A DNA stretch of 15,253 nt. Source: Anaerolineae bacterium (GTDB taxonomy: Bacteria > Chloroflexota > Anaerolineae > JAFGEY01). Location of the stretch: the NCBI GenBank assembly GCA_016929205.1, contig JAFGJF010000183.1, positions 1-15,253 of the forward strand, read 5' to 3'. Every line of letters starts with the position of its first letter. Position 1 is the first letter of the stretch. A program made the translations under genes and the position numbers. The notes below the pieces were generated by a model. The model ran no database searches. It saw nothing but the letters and a program-made list of their open reading frames with translations, and was not told the origin of the DNA. Positions 1,708 to 11,905 of the stretch are shown piece after piece.

Positions 1708-1832
1708 TGGGTAGGGCGACTGTCTCAGTCCCGGTTGATGTCACATTGTCGCCCCTGGTGGCATATAGCTAGTAGAAAAGGATGCCAGCGGTTACGTGGG
1801 CTATAGTTGTGGGCAAAGAGAAAGGTTTTCAG

Positions 1833-2774
1833 GTGGATTCTTTTGACAGTGTTCAACGACGTTATTGGACGGCGCTGGACGCCGTGGTTGCCAGGCTGGA
1901 ACAGGATCGGTACGTACTGGCTGTCGTCCTATATGGCAGCCTGGCGCGGGGAGAGGCGTGGGACAAATCGGATATCGATCTCACGATCATTGAACAGGAT
2001 GGACTCAAGCAGGATACGCGCTCTACTTGGTTGGTGCAGGATGGGATCAATATTTTTGCCACAGTGATCTCGCGCAACCGTTTCAAGCGCGAGCTGGAGG
2101 GAGCGTTGCAGGGATCGATCGTGCATTCAATCCGTTCCCAGAGCAAGCTCTTGTTTAGCAAAGACGCATCGATCGTGGCGTGGTTCGAGGAAAGCGAGCG
2201 CATTGGTGCCCGCGATCAGGACATGCAACTGTTGCGCGCAGCATCTGTGGTGCCTTACTATGTGGAAAAGGCACAAAAGTGGTTCTGTGCCAAGCACGAT
2301 CTCGATTATTGTTTTTTGTGGATCATGTACGTGGTGAACAACCTGGCACGGGTGGAGGTGGTGCTGAATGGAGAAGCGCCCGGACGGGAAGCGATTCACC
2401 AGGCACTCAAGATCAATCCCGCTTTCTTTGATGCCGTCTATGTCGACTTGATTCACGGCCCCAAGAGCGAGGAGCAAATCCGGCAAGCACTGGACATGAT
2501 CGATGCATATCTGGTGGAGCGTGCACATCGTCTGTTCAAGCCGGTGCTGGACTACCTGGCGGAGGCCAATGGCCTGTGCACGGCGTCGGACCTCGATATG
2601 CATTTTCGGAAAAAGGTCCAGACCAGCACCCTGGCTGGCGTCTATGAGTGGTTGGCAGACAAACAGATTATTGAAAAACTGGCTGCGCCGCTGAGATTGA
2701 CGAAAAAGAGTCAGGTTGTGCTTGAAGAGCCGGCTTACTTTTACGATCCAGAACCTGACTGGGAGGAGGTATAG
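1833..2774 (+). CDS. Nucleotidyltransferase-domain protein with C-terminal winged-helix-like region
   Basis: With the GTG start at 1833 the product is 313 residues. AAAGG lies 7 nt upstream of this start. The alternative ATG at 1782 has its AAAAGG directly abutting the start codon, a poor spacing. Residues 33-50 ([18 protein letters not shown]) are the hG[GS]..RG...SDID signature of Pol-beta-like nucleotidyltransferases, with the metal-binding Asp pair about D47/D49. A third catalytic acid is not obvious: the expected strand reads INIFATVI. The middle, about 130-235, is all-helical. The last 70 residues (from about [11 protein letters not shown] to LRLTKKS) look like a winged helix. The TAG stop overlaps the uvrA GTG start by one base, so translation is coupled. 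The substrate is unknown; transfer of a nucleotide to a protein, drug or tRNA are all possible. I see no convincing promoter for it in 1711-1832. Confidence 0.8.
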
Positions 2775-5638
2775 TGCGAGATACGATCGATGTAAAGGGT
2801 GCCAAGGAACATAACCTCAAAAACGTTGACGTCGAGATCCCGCGCAATCAACTTGTCGTCATCACCGGCGTCAGCGGCTCGGGCAAGTCGTCGCTGGCGT
2901 TTGACACGGTGTATGCCGAAGGGCAACGGCGGTTTCTAGAGTCGTTGTCGGCGTATGCCAAAAAGTTTGTTTCACAGTTGAAAAAGCCGAATGTGGATTT
3001 TGTAACCGGGCTGTCTCCTGTGATCTCGATCGAGCAAAAGACGACGAATCGTAACCCACGCTCAACCGTCGGCACGATGACGGACATTTATGATTATTTG
3101 CGGATGTTGTTTGCGACGGTTGGTGTCGCACACTGCCCTTACTGCGGGCGTGAGGTGCCAATCAGATCGAGTAAACAGATGCTGGAACGCTTGCTCGCGC
3201 TGCCCGAGGAAACTGAGGTCGAAATCCGAGCGCCGGTGTTCAAGTTCTACGGCGAGGATTACGCCTACCTGCTGGATGATCTGCGCACCAAGGGCTATCG
3301 TCGGATCTATGTCGACGGCCAATTGTGCGACGCTAGCAAGGACTTGGACTTGGATGAGGCCAAGACGTACCAGCTTGACATCCTGGTGGATAGATTTGTG
3401 ATCAAGGGTGATATGGATCGCCAGGTTTTGGCTTCGCTCGATCACGGGCTGCTCGTTGGGGAAGGCTTTATCAGCTTGCATCTCGTGACCCTGCTCACCG
3501 ATCATAACGGGTCATTTTACGCGGACTTGGCCTGCCCCGAACACGGCGTGGTGATGGGTGAGCTGGAGCCGCAGTATTTTAGCTTTAACCTGCCTTCCGG
3601 GAGCAGTTCGTGCGTCACTTGCTTGGGCATGGGAACCTACCGACAGGTTCACCCCGATCTGCTCGTACCCGATAAAAGTCGCAGCATCAAAAGTGGGGCG
3701 TTCATTCCGGCGGCGTTCAAGTATGACAAGAATTTGTGGGACGGGCGGATTATGTACAGCCTGGCCCAACACTATGGGTTCAGCCTGGATACGCCTTTTG
3801 AGGAATTGGGAGCAGATATTGTTGACATCCTGTTCTATGGCAATGGGGGAGTCCGGTTCCCGGTCGTCTTGCCAGAGGGTGCGGCGTCGGGCGAACAACA
3901 CGTGGGGCGAATGGTCAGTTTTGGCGGTATTATCAACCGCATTGAGCGTCGTTACCGCCGTTATCGCAAAGAAGGCACGCAGCACACGTGGGTGGAAGAG
4001 TGGCTCAAACGGGTGATGGTCGAATATGTATGCCCCGACTGCGGTGGCAAGCGACTCAAGTGGCAGCGTTTCCTGGTCACGATCGATGACGAGACGATCC
4101 ACGATGTGAGCGAAATGCCGCTGCAGCGGCTGATCGATTTCTTGCAACAGATCCCGATGCCGCAAAAGAAAAAAAAGGCGGGGGTTCAGATCGCCAACGA
4201 GATCGTGCGTCGCGTGCGCCTGCTGCTCGATATCGGATTGGATTACCTGATGTTGAATCGTCGTGCCGACACGCTTTCCGGCGGCGAGTCGCAGCGCGTT
4301 CGGTTATCTACCCAGATCGGTTCGGAACTGATGGGAATGCTTTACGTACTCGACGAGCCCAGCATCGGCCTGCATCCTAAAGACAATGTCAAGATGATCG
4401 ATACCTTGAGGCGGCTACGGGACATGGGTAACTCGGTCATTGTCGTCGAACACGACGAGACGACGATGCGCGCAGCCGATCATATCATTGAGCTTGGCCC
4501 TGGTCCTGGCTTGCACGGCGGCAAGATCGTTGCTCAAGGGAGGATCGATGACATTCTGGGCGATCCGGTCTCGTTAACCGGTCAGTACTTGCGCGGTGCA
4601 CGACGGATTTCCATACCCAAAGCGCGGCGCAGCCCTAACTGTAAAAGTCTAGTCGTCCGTGGCGCACAGCAAAACAACTTGCGTGGGATTGATGTCACAA
4701 TCCCGTTGGGTGTGTTTACCTGTGTAACTGGCGTTTCCGGCTCGGGCAAGAGCAGCCTGGTCCACGAGATACTCTACAAAAAACTCTATTCGATCTTTCA
4801 CGACAGCCGGGTACTGCCGGGCCGGCACGAAGCGATTGAAGGCATCGAGTACATCAGCGATGTGATCCACATCGATCAGTCGCCAATCGGCCGCTCGCCA
4901 CGTTCCAACCCGGCAACCTATATTGGCATTTACGACGCGATCCGTCGGCTCTTTGCTCGCACACCGCAAGCGCAGGCTCGCGGCTATACAGTTTCACGCT
5001 TTAGTTTCAACGTCAAGCAGGGGCGCTGTGAAGAATGCGGCGGTGAGGGCGTGCTCAGAACCCACTTGCAACTGATGGCCGATGTCGAGACAATATGTCC
5101 GGTTTGCAAAGGAGCGCGGTATAACGAGGAAACGCTCGAGATCGTGTACAATGGGAAAAACATCGGCGAGGTATTGGATATGTCGATCGAAGAAGGGAGT
5201 GCCTTTTTCGTCGATCAGCGAGCGATCCATCACAAGCTGCACATTATGGACGAGTTGGGCCTGGGGTATCTACAGTTGGGCCATCCGGCGACGCATCTCT
5301 CCGGCGGGGAAGCACAGCGCGTCAAACTGGCTCACCAATTGGGCAAGATCAAGCATGGCAAACACAATCTGTACATTCTCGACGAGCCGACGACTGGCCT
5401 GCACTTGGCTGATATTCAAAGGCTGCTGGACAGCCTGAATCGGCTGGTGGATGCAGGGCACACCGTGGTGGTGATCGAACATCATATGGATGTGATCAAG
5501 GCCGCCGACTGGATCATCGACCTGGGACCGGAAGGAGGCGACGCCGGCGGGCGTATCGTTGCTCAGGGCGCACCGGAGCAGATTGCCCAAGTGCCAACAA
5601 GTTACACCGGGCGATATCTGAAGCGTATCCTGATTTGA
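2774..5638 (+). CDS. uvrA: UvrA, excinuclease ABC subunit A (divergent form)
   Basis: UvrA is the damage-sensing ATPase of nucleotide excision repair; it scans DNA and loads UvrB. At 954 residues the length is typical. The first ATPase half has Walker [10 protein letters not shown] (32-40), [15 protein letters not shown], signature LSGGESQRV (501-509) and Walker [12 protein letters not shown]. The second has Walker A (653-661), the DNA-binding zinc finger C752/C755/C775/C778, signature LSGGEAQRV (842-850) and [10 protein letters not shown]. Two features differ from classical UvrA. The first zinc site is C254..H257/C280..C283, with His in place of the second Cys. The segment after the C-terminal zinc pair reads HLQLMADVE rather than the usual MHFLPDVYV-like sequence. 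It may therefore be a paralogue rather than the main UvrA. The start is GTG at 2774, with GGGAGGAGG at 2761-2769. It overlaps the upstream nucleotidyltransferase gene by one base. Confidence 0.95.
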
Positions 5639-5662
5639 CCATTTCCGAATTCCGAGTATAAT
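5635..5662 (+). promoter_or_regulatory. Sigma70-type promoter of the ABC-F leader
   Basis: TTGACC (5635-5640), a 16-bp spacer and exact TATAAT (5657-5662). The -35 hexamer overlaps the uvrA stop codon (TGA, 5636-5638). The start would be near 5669, giving a leader of about 235 nt before the ABC-F gene. Confidence 0.75.
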
Positions 5663-5702
5663 TGATTCGTTCGGTATTTCATCAACTATGGAGTTGGACC
5701 AG

Positions 5703-5765
5703 ATGCACGATCACAAGGGCTATCACAATCCTATCAGCGCTGCAGTGGAGGATGCCTTGTATTAA
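5703..5765 (+). CDS. 20-codon leader peptide upstream of the ABC-F gene
   Basis: An ATG at 5703 opens a 20-codon frame, MHDHKGYHNPISA then AVEDALY, ending in TAA (5763-5765). GGAG at 5690-5693 lies 9 nt upstream. The frame sits between a strong promoter and two intrinsic terminators in front of an ABC-F ATPase gene, the usual place for a regulatory leader ORF. Its stop codon directly abuts the first strand of a possible antiterminator (5766-5773). A ribosome stalled within the frame could leave that strand free to pair, while one reaching the stop would cover it. I do not recognise the peptide, and its coding status rests on position and ribosome site. Confidence 0.6.
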   Translation: MHDHKGYHNPISAAVEDALY

Positions 5766-5808
5766 TGCGCCTGGTTGATGTTTAGTTATGTCAAGAAGCG
5801 TGGGCGCA
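5766..5808 (+). promoter_or_regulatory. Candidate antiterminator helix in the ABC-F leader
   Basis: TGCGCCTG (5766-5773), directly after the leader-ORF stop codon, can pair with TGGGCGCA (5801-5808): six Watson-Crick pairs and two G-U pairs. This uses most of the left arm of terminator 1 (5798-5804), so the two folds exclude each other. A second pairing, CATCAAC (5680-5686) with GTTGATG (5774-5780), flanks the leader ORF and may be part of the same switch. Confidence 0.5.
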
Positions 5809-5827
5809 AGATCCCGCGCTTTTTTGT
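5794..5827 (+). terminator. Intrinsic terminator 1 in the ABC-F leader (attenuator)
   Basis: GCGTGGG (5798-5804) pairs with CCCGCGC (5813-5819), seven pairs including one G-U, with an 8-nt loop and then TTTTTTG. It lies 32 nt after the leader-ORF stop and 80 nt before the ABC-F start. Confidence 0.75.
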
Positions 5828-5849
5828 TTCATAGCCCAGTTGGAACAAC

Positions 5850-5887
5850 AAACCGTGAGCGCACACAAGCTCGCGGTTTTTTGTTTT
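5850..5887 (+). terminator. Intrinsic terminator 2 in the ABC-F leader
   Basis: AAACCGTGAGC (5850-5860) pairs with GCTCGCGGTTT (5869-5879), eleven pairs including one G-U, with loop GCACACAA, followed by TTTGTTTT. It is in tandem with terminator 1 and ends 16 nt before the ABC-F start codon. Confidence 0.75.
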
Positions 5888-5903
5888 CAGAGAGGGTAGG
5901 ACG

Positions 5904-7901
5904 ATGTCAATTCTTACATTTCACAATCTCGGCCAATCGTTTGGCGCGGTAGATATTTTTGGTGGGCTGGGTGGCGACATTCCACGTGGTGCCAAAATTG
6001 GCCTCGTCGGGCCAAATGGGATTGGTAAAACGACGCTGCTGCGCATCCTGGTGGGGGTGATCAGGCCGACATCAGGTAACGTCTATATTGCCAAGGGAAC
6101 GCGCGTCGGCTATTTGCAGCAAGAGGCCGTGGATGCTTTTGTCGATCACGAAAACAGTGTGTACGCCGAGATGCTCACCGTTTTTGCCGATCTACTGGCC
6201 CAAGCGGACAAACTGCGCCGGATGGAAGGCGAAATGGCCCAAGGTGACGTATGTGATGCGCTTATGCAGCGCTATGGTACTGCGCAAGAGGCGTTTGAGC
6301 TGGCCGGAGGCTATGACTACGAGGTGCGCATCCAGCAAGTGCTGACCGGTTTGGGGTTTGACGGGCAGCAACAGCGTATGCCGTTGAGCCATTGCAGCGG
6401 TGGACAAAAGACGCGTGCTCTGTTGGCTCGTTTGCTGCTGGAAAAGCCGGATCTGTTGATCCTCGATGAACCAACCAATCATCTCGATGTCGAGGCGGTG
6501 GAGTGGCTGGAAGGGATGCTGCATGCCTGGGAAGGCTCGCTTTTGATCGTCAGTCACGACCGCTATTTCCTGGATCGTGTGGTGAGTGTGATATGGGAGA
6601 TGACACGCGGCGGGATGGAGAGCTATCGCGGTAACTATACGGCTTATTTGCGCCAGCGCGAAGAGCGCTGGATTCGTCGCGATAAGGCATTTGCGGCAAC
6701 CCGTGAGTATTTCCTAAAAGAACTGGATTACATCAAGCGCAATATTGTTCGCGATAGTACTACGGCACAAGCGCAAGGACGGCTGCGGCGTTTGGTTCGC
6801 GGCGTTAAAGCCGTCGAGTTGGCTGGACCTCAGGCGCTGGAAAAAAGCTGGCTACGTTTCACCGAAGAATGGGAGGTGTCCAAAACCAAGTGGAATGTGG
6901 CCGAGGTCGAACAGCGTATCAAGGCTTTGCAGAACCCAAATCCGCGCCACCACCAGCTCAAAATGCGTCTCCATACCGCTCGACGTGGTGGAAACATTGT
7001 TCTACGCACTCGAGATCTAGAGATCGGATATCCCAAGACGTCGCTGTTCAAGGCAGACGATATCGAGTTGCTGCGGTGCGAATGCGCAGCGCTCATTGGT
7101 CCCAATGGTACGGGCAAGTCGACTTTTTTACGTGCGTTGGTTGGCGAGATCGATGTGCTGAGCGGTGAGATCTGCCTTGGGGCAAATATGCAGATCAGTT
7201 ATTTTGCCCAAGCCTATGAGGCTTTGAATCCGGACCAACCTGTTTTGGATGAGCTGTTGTCACATCGAAATATGCCGGTGGGTGAGGCGCGGGATCATTT
7301 GGCGCGTTTTATGTTCAGAGAAGATGATGTATTCAAGCCGGTGTGTGCGCTCAGCGGTGGTGAACGCAGCCGTCTGGCGCTGGCTGTGCTGGCACTACAA
7401 AAGGGGAATCTGTTGGTGCTTGACGAGCCAACCAACCATTTGGATATTCCAGCGCAGGAGGTGTTGCAGGAGGTGTTGCAGCAATTTGGGGGTACGATTT
7501 TGATGGTTTCGCACGATCGTTACTTGATCGACAAGCTGGCGACGCAAATCTGGGAACTGCGTGATGGGTATCTAGACGTTCACAAGGGTGATTATCAGTC
7601 GTTTCTTGCTTCTCGACAGCAAGTGCAGGCATATGCCAGGCAAGAGAGAGCGCGCGGTCATGGTGACGAGCCGCGGGGTGTTGCGTCAACCGGTCAGGAT
7701 CAAGATCTGAACAAGGCCATCGCGCACGCTGAAAAAATGATCGCCCAGGCGGAGCATACTTTGCAACAACTTGGCCAAGATCTGCTTGTGGCCACCGAGG
7801 CCCAAGCGTGGGAGCGGGTGCATGCGTTGGACCGGGAGTACCAGGATGCACAGTCGCAGCTTGAAAAGTTGATGATGCAATGGGAAGCGTTGTGTGACTA
7901 G
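5904..7901 (+). CDS. ABC-F family ATPase (ribosome-associated, possible antibiotic-protection factor)
   Basis: The 665-residue protein has two ATP-binding cassettes and no membrane segments, as ABC-F proteins do. Cassette 1: Walker A GPNGIGKTT (36-44), signature CSGGQ (164-168, Cys instead of Leu), DEPTNHLD (188-195). Cassette 2: Walker A GPNGTGKST (399-407), LSGGE (483-487), DEPTNHLD (507-514). The inter-domain linker, about 250-360, is charged and helical; in this family it reaches toward the ribosomal P-site tRNA. Residues 600-665 form a C-terminal coiled coil like those of Uup-type members. ABC-F proteins act on the ribosome, some as translation factors and some by displacing peptidyl-transferase-centre antibiotics. 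The attenuator-like leader favours an inducible resistance role (inference). The ribosome site is AGAGGG shortly before the ATG. Confidence 0.93.
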   Translation: MSILTFHNLGQSFGAVDIFGGLGGDIPRGAKIGLVGPNGIGKTTLLRILVGVIRPTSGNVYIAKGTRVGYLQQEAVDAFVDHENSVYAEMLTVFADLLAQADKLRRMEGEMAQGDVCDALMQRYGTAQEAFELAGGYDYEVRIQQVLTGLGFDGQQQRMPLSHCSGGQKTRALLARLLLEKPDLLILDEPTNHLDVEAVEWLEGMLHAWEGSLLIVSHDRYFLDRVVSVIWEMTRGGMESYRGNYTAYLRQREERWIRRDKAFAATREYFLKELDYIKRNIVRDSTTAQAQGRLRRLVRGVKAVELAGPQALEKSWLRFTEEWEVSKTKWNVAEVEQRIKALQNPNPRHHQLKMRLHTARRGGNIVLRTRDLEIGYPKTSLFKADDIELLRCECAALIGPNGTGKSTFLRALVGEIDVLSGEICLGANMQISYFAQAYEALNPDQPVLDELLSHRNMPVGEARDHLARFMFREDDVFKPVCALSGGERSRLALAVLALQKGNLLVLDEPTNHLDIPAQEVLQEVLQQFGGTILMVSHDRYLIDKLATQIWELRDGYLDVHKGDYQSFLASRQQVQAYARQERARGHGDEPRGVASTGQDQDLNKAIAHAEKMIAQAEHTLQQLGQDLLVATEAQAWERVHALDREYQDAQSQLEKLMMQWEALCD

Positions 7902-8035: not shown

Positions 8036-8040
8036 CGAAC

Positions 8041-8070
8041 TTGCACGCCGTGAGTGGTGTCATGTACAAT
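8041..8070 (+). promoter_or_regulatory. Sigma70-type promoter of the sigma/mini-polymerase operon
   Basis: TTGCAC (8041-8046), an 18-bp spacer and TACAAT (8065-8070). The start would be near 8077, about 74 nt before the sigma-factor ATG. If correct, the operon is transcribed at least partly by the normal RNA polymerase. Confidence 0.6.
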
Positions 8071-8117
8071 AGAGGGCATAGTGAGGCCGGGTTTGCTGAT
8101 GGAGAGGCCATCTCGGT

Positions 8118-8131
8118 CAGGTTCGCACCTG
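8118..8131. promoter_or_regulatory. Palindrome in the sigma-gene 5' untranslated region
   Basis: CAGGT-TCGC-ACCTG is a 5-4-5 inverted repeat, about 40-55 nt after the predicted transcription start. A second small inverted repeat, GATGG-AGAGG-CCATC, precedes it at 8098-8112. They could be short RNA hairpins or a protein-binding site. Confidence 0.3.
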
Positions 8132-8150
8132 GGTGAAAAAGGGACGACGG

Positions 8151-8738
8151 ATGTTGCCTGATTCAGACTTGATGAAACAAATCCTGGAGGGCGATGAAAC
8201 GGCATTTGGACAGCTTTTCGATCGCTACGAAGAACAGATTCGTCGCCATGTGGCGAACATTGTTCATAACGACGCTGCGGCCCAGGACGTGGTCCAGGAA
8301 GCGTTTTTGCGGGTGTGGACTCGGGCTGAACAATGGCGGGGCATCGGAACATTCAAAGCGTGGTTGTATCGCATTGCGACAAACCTGGCTTTGAATCACT
8401 TGCGTTCGATCAGGAGACGCAAAGAGCTACCACTGCCAGTGCCGGATAGCGAGCAGGATGACGAAAGCCTTCCGCCCGCCTGGCTGATCGACGATGCGAC
8501 GCCGGGGCCGGATGTGGTGCTGGAATGGACCGAGCAGCAGACAACGTTCCGCCGTTTGGTGGGCATGCTCTCCAAAGAGAAGCGCGAGGTATTTCGTTTG
8601 GTGCACGAGATGGAAATGAGCGTTCGGGGGGCGGCTGACGAACTGGACATTCCCGAAGGCACGGTCAAGTCGCGCCTTTACTATGCCAAAAAACAACTTG
8701 CCCGCGAGTGGCGAGCGCTGCGCGCGGCAAGAGAGTGA
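8151..8738 (+). CDS. ECF-type RNA polymerase sigma factor
   Basis: From the ATG at 8151 the product is 195 residues, preceded by AGGGA with suitable spacing. The upstream GTG at 8133 (201 residues) lacks a ribosome site. Region 2 spans about 19-90: FDRYEEQIRRHVANIV, AAQDVVQEAFLRVW, and GTFKAWLYRIATNLALNHLR, which should melt and read the -10 element. A linker of about 40 residues is acidic and proline-rich. Region 4 spans about 128-187, with the helix-turn-helix SVRGAADELDIPEGTVKSRL for -35 recognition. No anti-sigma gene is next to it. The stop codon lies 20 bp before the ATG of the mini-polymerase, with AGGAGG in the gap, so the two are almost certainly co-transcribed. It may be a dedicated specificity factor for that enzyme or may work with the main polymerase (inference). 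Confidence 0.95.
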   Translation: MLPDSDLMKQILEGDETAFGQLFDRYEEQIRRHVANIVHNDAAAQDVVQEAFLRVWTRAEQWRGIGTFKAWLYRIATNLALNHLRSIRRRKELPLPVPDSEQDDESLPPAWLIDDATPGPDVVLEWTEQQTTFRRLVGMLSKEKREVFRLVHEMEMSVRGAADELDIPEGTVKSRLYYAKKQLAREWRALRAARE

Positions 8739-8758
8739 GACTGCATAGGAGGAAATCT

Positions 8759-11700
8759 ATGTCTTGGAATGTGTCGACGCCATGGCACAAGGCGTCATTC
8801 GATCGTTTTCTCCAGGATCGGTTACCACAACTGCTGGCTGACCGGCTGCCGCTGGTCGGATACCAGGCCGGATCGACCAGCTCGTTTACCTGTTACGTCA
8901 AGATTGTGCTGGCATCCGAAAACGGGGATGTTGCGGTCGAGTACATCGATCTCGCGCAGCCGAACGAAAACGGCTTGTTTGACATTGCACAGAAACACTG
9001 TGTCGTCGTTCCCATTGCTTTGCAGGAGGATCTCGAAACGGCCGAGATCCAATGTGTGGGGGAGCAGCTTTATGACTATATCCAGGCACGCATAGGTCAG
9101 GCGCCGCCCGATTGTTCGTGGGATGCGGCGCTGGTGCGGGCGTGGCTGCCGCTTGACGTCTGGATCGCCGAGTTTTTGAGCGAGACCGCCCAGCAGCTTG
9201 ATGATACGAACTGGCTCAGCCGCCGCACTCATTTACGCAGTGTCCTGCTGCCCAATCGTGAAAATATCATCCTGCCAGCCGAATTTGGACGCGTTTGTCC
9301 CTTTGAAACGCCCGAAGGCCCCAACATTGGTCGCATACTGAGGGTTGCCGTAGGGGCAGAAATTCACGACGGCAAGTTGGTCGTAGTCGATCAATGTCCT
9401 GAAGCAGCCCTTGGATTGTCCGCTTCGATGATCCCACTGCTAGAGCACAACGATCCCAACCGCCTGCTGATGGGAGCCAATATGATGCGCCAGTGGGTGG
9501 TGCAGCGTACCGCCGAACCGGCACTCGTCCAGAGTGGCGGCGAGCCAGATGTGCCAGACTTTTGGATCGGGCGTAATTTGCTCACGGCATTTGTTTCCTG
9601 GGGCGCGGATACCTTTGCCGATGGCATCGTGGTCAGTGAGTCGTGCGCGCGCCGCTTCGATACACCATACGCTCTCGAACCCGGCGACAAAGTGAGCAAC
9701 CGTCACGGCACCAAAGGGGTCATCAGCCGCATCTTGCCAGATGACGAAATGCCCCATCTGCCCGATGGCACGTCAGTTGACCTCGTGTTCAATTTCTTTG
9801 GCCTGAACGTGCGGATGCACTTTGGACAGGTGCGCGAAGCTGTGTTGGGACGCATTGCTCGTGTGGAAGGCGTGCCCTTTGTCGCACCCCCTTTCCACGC
9901 TCCAAGTACGGATGAACTGCGCCAGCGGCTGATACAAACCGGGCTGCCGGCGTCCGGTATGGAAACACTGACCATGGGGCGAAACGGTCCCGAACTGGAG
10001 CGCCCGAGCGCCGTTGGCTGGGTCTATTGGGGGCGCTTGTTCCATCTCGCACAGAGCAAAATCAAGGCCTCTGCCGACGGCGGCATGCAGCGGCAAGGCG
10101 AGATGGAATGTTACGCCTTGCGTGATGTTGGGGCGTACGCGTTGCTTGGAGAGATGCTAAACACGATCTCGTCCAGGCATCCAGATGCGGCAACGCTCGC
10201 CGCCCGGATGGCGTCAGGTCCTATCGAACAGCCTGTTGCGCCCACGCCGATTTTCAGTGATTTGGCACAACGGCTCCAGATCGCGGGCATCGAGATGTCG
10301 CTTGATGATCACAACCGGCTCAGGTTCCGTTTCCAGCCGCCCAGAGGTGAGGTGCACACGCTGGCGCATCCGGTGGCGCATCCCTGGCTGCCCGAGCGCG
10401 AGTTGGATGCAATTGGTGTGCCCACGGGGTTAAGCGACACGGGTCAGATGATTGGTTGCAGACTGGCTCCCGATCTGTTGTGCGAAACGTATAGCGCACT
10501 GATCGAAGCAAACGACCGGCTGTCGCGGATGCTGGCTAACCAGACACCACAGAAACTGGTGCAGAGTGCCATTGACCAACTGCAGGCTCGCGTCAATGTC
10601 TTTTTTGATGCGCTGTTGCCACCATCGCATCTGCGTTTAGGTGAGCGGTTGCTCTTTAGTGGGCGAACGGTGATCGCTCCTGGTGCAGAGCTGCGCATCG
10701 ATCAGGTGGCTCTGGCGGACGAGATCGCCTGGACGTTGTTTGGGCCGCTGGTGACCCGCGGGCTAGGTGACGCGGAAGCGGTCCAGGCACGCAGTGTACT
10801 GGCCGCACAGGTGCTCGACGACGTGATGGCCCGTTCGTGGGTGATCATTAACCGTGCCCCCACGATGTCACCGACGGCGCTGCTGGCCTTTCATCCGGTG
10901 CGCGATCTTGATTCTGTGATCCGTTTGCACCCGCTGGTTTGCGAGATGCTCAATGCCGACTTTGATGGAGACCAGGTGGCTGTCTGGTTGCCAGTGACCG
11001 AGGCCGGACAGCGCGAGGCCGGAGACAAGCTGTCGGTGGCTGCACACCTGGCCCGCGATCCCGATTTGGTCGATGCTTTGCCTTTGCCTCCAGAAGCGTT
11101 GTGGGGATTGGCGAGCCTGGGGCTGGCGGATGGGGCACCCGAGATCGCACGGCTGGCCGGCATCGCAGTGGCGATGCCTCGCGGGCTGGTGACGCAGACA
11201 ACGCTTGCAGAAGCGATGCGCAAGCTGTTGGCACGTGACGGGATCGATGCTGTACTGGCGGCACTTGACCGCTTGATGCGACGCGGCTTTGAGGTCGTCA
11301 AGGCCTCAGGTGCGTCGATGAACCCGTTCTTTGGGGAAAGTGTGGTCCATCCACCTCAACCCACCGAGGATGTATCCGAAGTCTGGGAGCGTTATGCGGA
11401 TCTGCTGACCGAGCAGGTGCTCACCCGCACGGATTATGACAGTGCTGATTTGGGACCGCAGCTTCTTGCGGTAAACATCCGGGCACGGGGGCGGATGGCT
11501 CCTCTTCACCACATCGGTCCACGCGGCCTGGTTGAGGATGCGCATGGAAACAGAGTCGTGGTGCGTCATGGCCTGGTTGAGGGCGTGACGGCAGCAGAAA
11601 TGTTTGCCTTTGCGGCTGCGGCGCGCCGCGGACTGGGGCAACTGGCGTTCCGTTGGCAAAATCTGGGTTATGAGGTGCGTGCCAGCCACGCTGCTCCAGG

Positions 11701-11839
11701 TTGGTTTACCGTGCTGGCCAGGGCGCGCCAGGCACAATGTCCGGGCATTGTTTTTGCACGTGCGGCAGCCAGCGGTGAGATCGATCCCTTGATCGACGTG
11801 GATAGCCGGCTGCTAGTGGGGTTGCCGGTCGCCACGTAA
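8759..11839 (+). CDS. Miniature single-chain RNA polymerase: beta-beta' fusion
   Basis: A 1026-residue protein; the ATG at 8759 has AGGAGG 6 nt upstream. Residues 1-520 follow the beta subunit: THLRS (fork/Rif region), GRVCPFETPEGPNIG (177-191), SMIPLLEHNDPNRLLMGANM, GDKVSNRHGTKGVIS with catalytic-type K311 and K319, NVRMHFGQ (R352), and QRQGEMECYALRDVGAY. The beta-like part ends at IEMSLDDHN (519). Residues 520-1026 follow beta': GEVHTLAHPVAHPW, clamp helices (about 570-612) with NDRLSRML, SGRTVI (R636), INRAPT (R699), LHPLVCEMLNADFDGDQ with D734/D736/D738, and a bridge-helix region (about 941-972). It should synthesise RNA from DNA. Compared with E. coli subunits it lacks most of the beta lobes, the whole beta flap, the beta' N-terminal zinc ribbon, the lid/rudder, and everything from the trigger loop on. 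The ECF sigma gene directly upstream is a likely partner. A degenerate or non-catalytic role is possible, but the catalytic residues argue against it. Confidence 0.9.
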   Translation: MSWNVSTPWHKASFDRFLQDRLPQLLADRLPLVGYQAGSTSSFTCYVKIVLASENGDVAVEYIDLAQPNENGLFDIAQKHCVVVPIALQEDLETAEIQCVGEQLYDYIQARIGQAPPDCSWDAALVRAWLPLDVWIAEFLSETAQQLDDTNWLSRRTHLRSVLLPNRENIILPAEFGRVCPFETPEGPNIGRILRVAVGAEIHDGKLVVVDQCPEAALGLSASMIPLLEHNDPNRLLMGANMMRQWVVQRTAEPALVQSGGEPDVPDFWIGRNLLTAFVSWGADTFADGIVVSESCARRFDTPYALEPGDKVSNRHGTKGVISRILPDDEMPHLPDGTSVDLVFNFFGLNVRMHFGQVREAVLGRIARVEGVPFVAPPFHAPSTDELRQRLIQTGLPASGMETLTMGRNGPELERPSAVGWVYWGRLFHLAQSKIKASADGGMQRQGEMECYALRDVGAYALLGEMLNTISSRHPDAATLAARMASGPIEQPVAPTPIFSDLAQRLQIAGIEMSLDDHNRLRFRFQPPRGEVHTLAHPVAHPWLPERELDAIGVPTGLSDTGQMIGCRLAPDLLCETYSALIEANDRLSRMLANQTPQKLVQSAIDQLQARVNVFFDALLPPSHLRLGERLLFSGRTVIAPGAELRIDQVALADEIAWTLFGPLVTRGLGDAEAVQARSVLAAQVLDDVMARSWVIINRAPTMSPTALLAFHPVRDLDSVIRLHPLVCEMLNADFDGDQVAVWLPVTEAGQREAGDKLSVAAHLARDPDLVDALPLPPEALWGLASLGLADGAPEIARLAGIAVAMPRGLVTQTTLAEAMRKLLARDGIDAVLAALDRLMRRGFEVVKASGASMNPFFGESVVHPPQPTEDVSEVWERYADLLTEQVLTRTDYDSADLGPQLLAVNIRARGRMAPLHHIGPRGLVEDAHGNRVVVRHGLVEGVTAAEMFAFAAAARRGLGQLAFRWQNLGYEVRASHAAPGWFTVLARARQAQCPGIVFARAAASGEIDPLIDVDSRLLVGLPVAT

Positions 11840-11864
11840 GGCATAGCCGGATCGAAACATATCG

Positions 11865-11905
11865 AAAGCGCTCGATGAGAATGCATCGGGCGCTTTTATA
11901 TTTTG
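11865..11905 (+). terminator. Intrinsic terminator after the mini-polymerase gene
   Basis: AAAGCGCTCGATG (11865-11877) pairs with CATCGGGCGCTTT (11884-11896), 13 pairs including one G-U, with loop AGAATG, followed by TATATTTTG. It lies 26 nt after the stop codon, so nothing further is expected in this operon. Confidence 0.85.

Follow-up and report, generated by a model that had tools for sequence, protein, structure and literature searches.

The window examined here, a 15,253-nucleotide stretch of DNA from an Anaerolineae bacterium (contig JAFGJF010000183.1), carries on its forward strand a gene for an extracytoplasmic function (ECF) sigma factor followed by a gene for a single-chain beta-beta' RNA polymerase, here called the mini-polymerase. 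A conserved promoter precedes the pair and a terminator-like hairpin follows it (Table 1). An initial annotation had dealt with the polymerase alone, as a miniature fused enzyme, and had overlooked the sigma gene. Its interpretation of the polymerase is supported here and is extended by a dedicated sigma factor and promoter. A two-barrel RNA polymerase variant so equipped appears to be new; among the matches listed from the open-licence literature in PubMed Central (PMC), none describes a single-chain polymerase that is chromosomal and has its own sigma, a prior mention elsewhere being possible.

Table 1. Features of the sigma-polymerase unit, by position in the window
Feature	Positions	Strand	Evidence
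ECF-type promoter: GAAC (-35), 15 bases, GGTGTC (-10)	8037..8061	+	GAAC-N15-GGNGTC conserved upstream of sigma
ECF sigma factor with regions 2 and 4; GTG 8133 as alternative start	8151..8738	+	Pfam Sigma70_r2 3e-18, Sigma70_r4_2 1e-10; start by alignment with relatives
Shine-Dalgarno AGGAGG of polymerase gene	8747..8752	+	Within the 20-base gap after the sigma stop; strong site
Single-chain beta-beta' RNA polymerase, 1,026 amino acids	8759..11839	+	Frame, Pfam, relatives, fold model, profile comparisons
Beta half (residues 1-520), with a reduced N-terminal part, the fork, the Lys double-psi barrel and the beta C-terminus; flap and lobe undetected	8759..10318	+	
GDKVSNRHGTKG with K311 and K319	9683..9718	+	K311 in 75/77 rows, K319 in 67/77
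Beta' half (residues 521-1026)	10319..11836	+	hhalign E 1.7e-40; region map
Clamp-helix coiled coil (residues 571-619), predicted sigma region 2 dock	10469..10615	+	E. coli beta' 262-309 profile matches 575-617, E 4e-5, probability 70%; model helices 571-593, 598-619
NADFDGD metal-binding loop (residues 732-738)	10952..10972	+	D736, D738 in 77/77 rows; D734 in 76/77
Bridge-helix equivalent (residues 945-977)	11591..11689	+	33-residue helix in model; weak profile match E 5e-4, probability 32%, at 947-972
Conserved C-terminal tail, tentatively beta' C-terminal segment	11711..11830	+	Colinear but weak match, E 0.013-0.02, probability 2-3%
Terminator-like hairpin after polymerase gene, 14-pair stem, T tail	11864..11897	+	Pattern search of region

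The polymerase gene is an intact frame of 1,026 codons, from the ATG at 8759 to a stop codon ending at 11839. As first annotated, its product is one chain that is colinear with RNA polymerase beta (residues 1-520) and then with beta' (520-1026), and the motifs named for the two halves, GDKVSNRHGTKG and NADFDGD among them, lie at their assigned places. Three Pfam domains score above cut-off in the order Rpb2_3 (3e-8), Rpb2_6 (6e-37) and Rpb1_2 (5e-20). Profile searches and structure prediction had been proposed as checks, and both agree with the annotation: residues 1-524 match RpoB at E 8e-66, residues 505-1026 match RpoC by hhalign at the value in Table 1, and the fold model is confident (predicted local distance difference test, pLDDT, 92.8; predicted template modelling score, pTM, 0.89). 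A model of the beta' half folded alone and without an alignment reached a pLDDT of 36 and was left unused. The NCBIfam rpoB score (181 against a cut-off of 801) and the match to the rpoC model both fall far below cut-off, as expected of a reduced relative. A phmmer search of the PDB (E up to 1) gave 205 distinct chain sequences, and the 60 listed are all of RNA polymerase beta or beta' type; VIA-align rows cover the beta half only, by which the beta' half is not contradicted. The family comprises at least 119 other proteins of 892-1,067 amino acids with 51-65% identity to the window polymerase, and the ratio of nonsynonymous to synonymous substitution rates (dN/dS) among close relatives is 0.15-0.18. 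The two findings together rule out chance resemblance. A pseudogene is rejected as well, since the close relatives are under purifying selection.

Conservation of the active site was counted over 77 aligned rows of relatives. D736 and D738 are invariant, and D734, K311, R352 (75/77) and R699 (71/77) are mostly kept, so the chain looks catalytically competent; R235 (64/77) and N732 (54/77) are also retained in most rows. On the beta side, the fork, the double-psi barrel with its two catalytic lysines and the C-terminal region are present, with five region profiles that match in colinear order within residues 135-517 (E 1e-9 to 3e-26). On the beta' side, the barrel that bears NADFDGD matches its RpoC profile at E 4e-32. 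Profiles of the RpoB flap (E. coli 835-1055) and lobe (150-445) gave no match (E 0.29 and 0.25), and the alignment skips the flap. No colinear match was found to the E. coli beta' profiles for the trigger loop (906-960), jaw (805-905), zinc ribbon (1-95) or rudder (308-335). The clamp helices are detectable by region profiles, while the remaining clamp, rudder, flap and lobe are not. The bridge-helix region of the initial annotation stands in part: the helix keeps its position, and its sequence is conserved only weakly. Beyond it, the C-terminal tail resembles E. coli beta' about 1330-1355 in a way that is no more than suggestive. Residue L163 of the window polymerase aligns with E. coli S531 in the rifampicin region and varies in the family, so the enzyme is possibly insensitive to rifampicin.

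In the sigma factor Pfam recognizes regions 2 and 4 but not region 3; the protein matches NCBIfam TIGR02937 at 9e-30 and has a dN/dS of 0.10-0.13 among close relatives. Known loci with the polymerase family number 32 (31 surveyed genomes and the window), and the gene context was inspected in 26. All but one of the 26 have an ECF sigma gene upstream of the polymerase and on its strand (25 of 26), the exception being a fragment copy in genome G058. Where no cargo intervenes, the two genes at one extreme overlap by 4 bases, as in seven loci, and at the other lie 249 bases apart. Clustering of open reading frames (ORFs) over 16 loci (from the window, Poribacteria, the class of the Gemmatimonadaceae metagenome-assembled genome (MAG) and Myxococcales) found the polymerase in 16 and the sigma factor in 15, and the missing one, at L123, was later located further upstream. 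Besides these two and the shadow frames inside them, no cluster spans more than six of the 16 loci. ECF sigmas commonly, though not universally, have an adjacent anti-sigma gene; no third gene recurs here beyond that limit of six loci, the neighbors not having been searched one by one for anti-sigma domains.

In nine of nine genomes, each with 7 to 29 ECF matches, the sigma beside the polymerase is the one that matches the window sigma best. These neighbor sigmas have 40-54% identity to it (131-209 bits), whereas no other sigma exceeds 40% or 90 bits. Ten polymerase-neighbor sigmas group in a single clade (100/99), separate from 21 paralogues, namely those for which loci were given. The pairwise distances of sigma and polymerase are correlated over 21 loci (r 0.976), and none of 5000 permutations gave a value as high.

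The promoter motif GAAC-N15-GGNGTC is present in all 21 distinct readable upstream regions when spacers of 13-19 are allowed, against 0.17 of 21 expected from first-order shuffles. This test left out L116 and L124, which are copies, and L118, whose sigma gene is cut by the locus end. Four further loci are positive with the spacer fixed at 15, so that all 25 loci have the promoter. Some of the loci are more closely related than others, but the motif spans the same four sources as the clustering above. GAAC...GTC is the consensus of ECF promoters, and a 15-base layout is ordinary for ECF sigmas. Terminator-like sites are no more frequent in the region than in shuffles (three against 4.4), so the weight of the hairpin rests on its place rather than its pattern. 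Given the promoter and the hairpin, the transcription unit probably consists of just the sigma and polymerase genes.

Relatives of the mini-polymerase bear the source names Anaerolineae, Chloroflexi, Ktedonobacteraceae, Hydrogenedentes, Poribacteria, Gemmatimonadota and Armatimonadetes, together with a Myxococcales MAG, and the names of the nearest ones point to Chloroflexota; a more distant branch of the family was also found. The named relatives are annotated as hypothetical proteins, except for one that lists Pfam domains, and several members lie on contigs millions of bases long. Replacement of the ordinary rpoB is rejected, as a normal rpoB stands beside the mini-polymerase in 17 of 17 genomes tested (four with rpoB and rpoC matches, 13 with full rpoB); the proposal of a chromosomal polymerase distinct from the main enzyme is supported. 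Occurrence is patchy: the mini-polymerase was found in 8 of 58 genomes in the phylum of the Poribacteria MAG, in 22 of 47 in the class of the Gemmatimonadaceae MAG, and in 1 of 235 in the phylum of the Myxococcales MAG, where up to three candidates per genome were scored. In the phyla of a Brevundimonas and a Planctomycetota genome it was found in 0 of 398 and 0 of 392, with two candidates per genome scored, which is weak proof of absence. In a tree rooted on one giant-virus RPB2, the mini chains group as a single clade (100/100) whose stem measures 1.4-1.5 changes per site, with long-branch flags. The tree does not place their origin; only the model scores (bacterial rpoB 181 bits, archaeal 107 and 140) favor a bacterial type.

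On balance we favor, with appreciable reservation, the reading that window 8037-11897 is a two-gene unit whose products pair as a small second holoenzyme, one that likely starts at its own ECF-type promoter. In normal enzymes sigma is bound by the clamp helices, and its region 4 usually docks on the flap. In the mini-polymerase, sigma region 2 would sit on the clamp helices that are still present, whose survival while most neighboring parts were lost fits a need for sigma docking. Region 4 would read the GAAC box without a beta flap, and the mini-polymerase would make RNA by two-metal catalysis without alpha, omega or trigger loop.

Several observations weigh against such a holoenzyme. The flap is undetected. 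At the positions of E. coli beta' R275, E295 and A302, which we take to be sigma contacts, the family has A/V/T, A/T/V and mostly R, respectively; these changes fit a private partner but could also reflect lost binding. Of the 77 rows, 10 have no lysine at K319 and 23 have no asparagine at N732. The G058 copy (L133:4266-6365, + strand) is decayed: it holds about the last 70% of the chain, with one internal stop, and no sigma match lies in 8 kb. The correlation of distances is expected for any two genes inherited together. The main enzyme could use the promoter too, since its spacing is ordinary for ECF sigmas. Lastly, a search of 10 genomes for a regulon (TGAACYT-N12-CGGNGTC, one mismatch) gave 169 matches against 151 in reversed controls, the 169 including ten own promoters if genome G057 has one too.

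In the nine genomes whose matches are listed (all but G057, with G002 listed up to its last rows), the own promoter is a perfect match, and at least five other perfect matches appear, four of them inside long open frames. The only one of the five outside a long open frame (L204:384-425, genome G002) lies 15 bases before an ORF that by eye resembles an arsenite methyltransferase, an unconfirmed likeness. In a wrong-spacing control, with the spacer one base longer, two patterns gave 1 match each against 1 and 15 in reversed controls. The clearest target of the promoter pattern is hence the unit itself, which suggests self-transcribing feedback: the unit would be a positive feedback switch that, once triggered, boosts itself and any gene inserted in it. 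Its purpose is possibly that of a stress back-up enzyme or of a vehicle for cargo genes.

Among other explanations, the one that survives best is that the sigma factor serves the main RNA polymerase only and switches the unit on, the mini-polymerase being an effector whose RNA synthesis needs no sigma and might, for instance, be non-specific, primed or RNA-templated, as part of a stress or defence response. The ordinary layout of the promoter suits a sigma that works with the main polymerase, as do the missing flap, the changed sigma-contact positions and the lack of a visible regulon. Synthesis without sigma is favored by the single-chain YonO, which is active on scaffolds and whose need for a promoter factor is left open in passages of PMC5467207. 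Against this explanation, the sigma-binding clamp helices are retained although most neighboring parts are gone, and the sigma belongs to a private clade that tracks the mini-polymerase. A defence system is not supported by PADLOC, which gives no match for the polymerase. We regard this explanation as unlikely. It is very doubtful that the mini-polymerase is a core decoy, no longer an enzyme, that holds sigma through its clamp helices in an anti-sigma role. The gene does occupy a slot beside an ECF sigma that often holds an anti-sigma gene (passages of PMC7406223), and it keeps the clamp helices with no trigger loop detected, but a decoy would not need the two aspartates that are invariant in the family or the nucleoside triphosphate-binding residues, most of which are kept. 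Hardly credible is a polymerase of YonO or crAss type left in chromosomes by a phage or plasmid: single-chain two-barrel polymerases are known from phages (passages of PMC10770324 and PMC7481178), yet a two-pattern scan of 2.9 million viral contigs in IMG/VR found no close family member, 50,697 phage and 72,556 plasmid records held no match covering 80% of the polymerase query, no other neighbor recurs beyond the clustering limit given above (neighbors were not annotated individually for phage genes), and the strong profile similarity is to cellular RpoB and RpoC rather than to phi3T YonO.

Among known systems, YonO of phage SPbeta is a proven single-chain DNA-dependent RNA polymerase of about 100 kDa without a detectable trigger loop (passages of PMC5467207), and this makes catalysis by the mini-polymerase plausible. 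Both have the two double-psi barrels in one chain of about that size and lack a detectable trigger loop. YonO shares few residues with cellular enzymes, whereas the mini-polymerase is near bacterial RpoB and RpoC, retains clamp helices and is accompanied by a sigma gene; its profile gave E 0.38 and 0.5 for two pieces of phi3T YonO that were searched apart. The single-chain polymerases gp66 of crAss-like phage phi14:2 and gp64 and gp96 of P23-45 likewise fuse the beta and beta' barrels without small subunits, but they are phage-encoded and highly diverged, and passages of PMC10770324 mention no sigma partner for them. The non-virion polymerase of phage AR9 is, like the mini-polymerase, a non-host type enzyme related to cellular ones with its own initiation factor. 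Its core consists of several beta and beta' homologues and is phage-encoded, and its specificity factor gp226 has no sequence similarity to sigma (passages of PMC7598289), whereas the predicted factor of the mini-polymerase is an ECF sigma.

A bacterial core with an ECF sigma shares the beta and beta' core motifs, the clamp helices, sigma regions 2 and 4 and the GAAC...GTC promoter. It differs in that E. coli uses a beta of 1,342 and a beta' of 1,407 amino acids in place of one 1,026-residue chain, that the mini-polymerase has no detected flap, lobe, zinc ribbon, rudder, jaw or trigger loop, and that its sigma gene adjoins its own core gene. Salmonella phage Arash gp206 and Vibrio phage D181 0267 also join the C-terminal part of beta to the start of beta' in one chain (L125:1643-6220 and L126:3224-6244; the D181 chain is annotated as a hypothetical protein). 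They end 91-94 residues past the start of DYDGD, before any bridge helix could follow, and are therefore presumably parts of split enzymes. An IMG/VR contig carries, at L108:6570-13406, an RPB2-type gene that by eye apparently contains several inteins.

In the textbook view, bacteria have one RNA polymerase core common to their sigma factors. If several phyla do have a second, compact core with a private sigma, this one-core rule would be broken. Such a core would show that flap, trigger loop and small subunits are dispensable, and with its sigma it would serve as a small orthogonal transcription system of two parts whose promoter sequence is known. We put forward tentatively, and with slightly more doubt than conviction, that this is the first two-protein cellular transcription system, in which sigma and a one-chain core without alpha, omega, flap, lobe or trigger loop act from the chromosome beside the standard enzyme in an autocatalytic loop on their own operon, orthogonal to the host sigma network.

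Cargo genes lie between sigma and polymerase in one branch of the family. At L132:3508-5370 (- strand) the cargo is an ABC exporter; at L136:9159-10349 (+ strand) it has no Pfam match and a look-alike at L118:3226-4371 (- strand), the proteins being 381-396 amino acids long. Upstream of the unit in the window (1782-7901), a nucleotidyltransferase gene overlaps a UvrA-family gene by one base and is followed by an ABC-F type ATPase. These types recall self-resistance neighborhoods and are not widely recurrent in the other loci. A different single-chain polymerase of 1,979 amino acids is encoded in genome G097 (L238:416-6355, - strand, contig C268 of 6,989 bases). It has RpoA N-terminal domains (PF01000, PF01193) followed by full beta and beta' sequences with a trigger-loop-like stretch. 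Nine chains of this type are listed, that of G097 included, with lengths of 1,913-2,015 amino acids and on contigs of up to 680 kb; the name of one points to a Candidatus Latescibacteria MAG. By their beta parts, five of these chains group in a clade apart from the mini chains.

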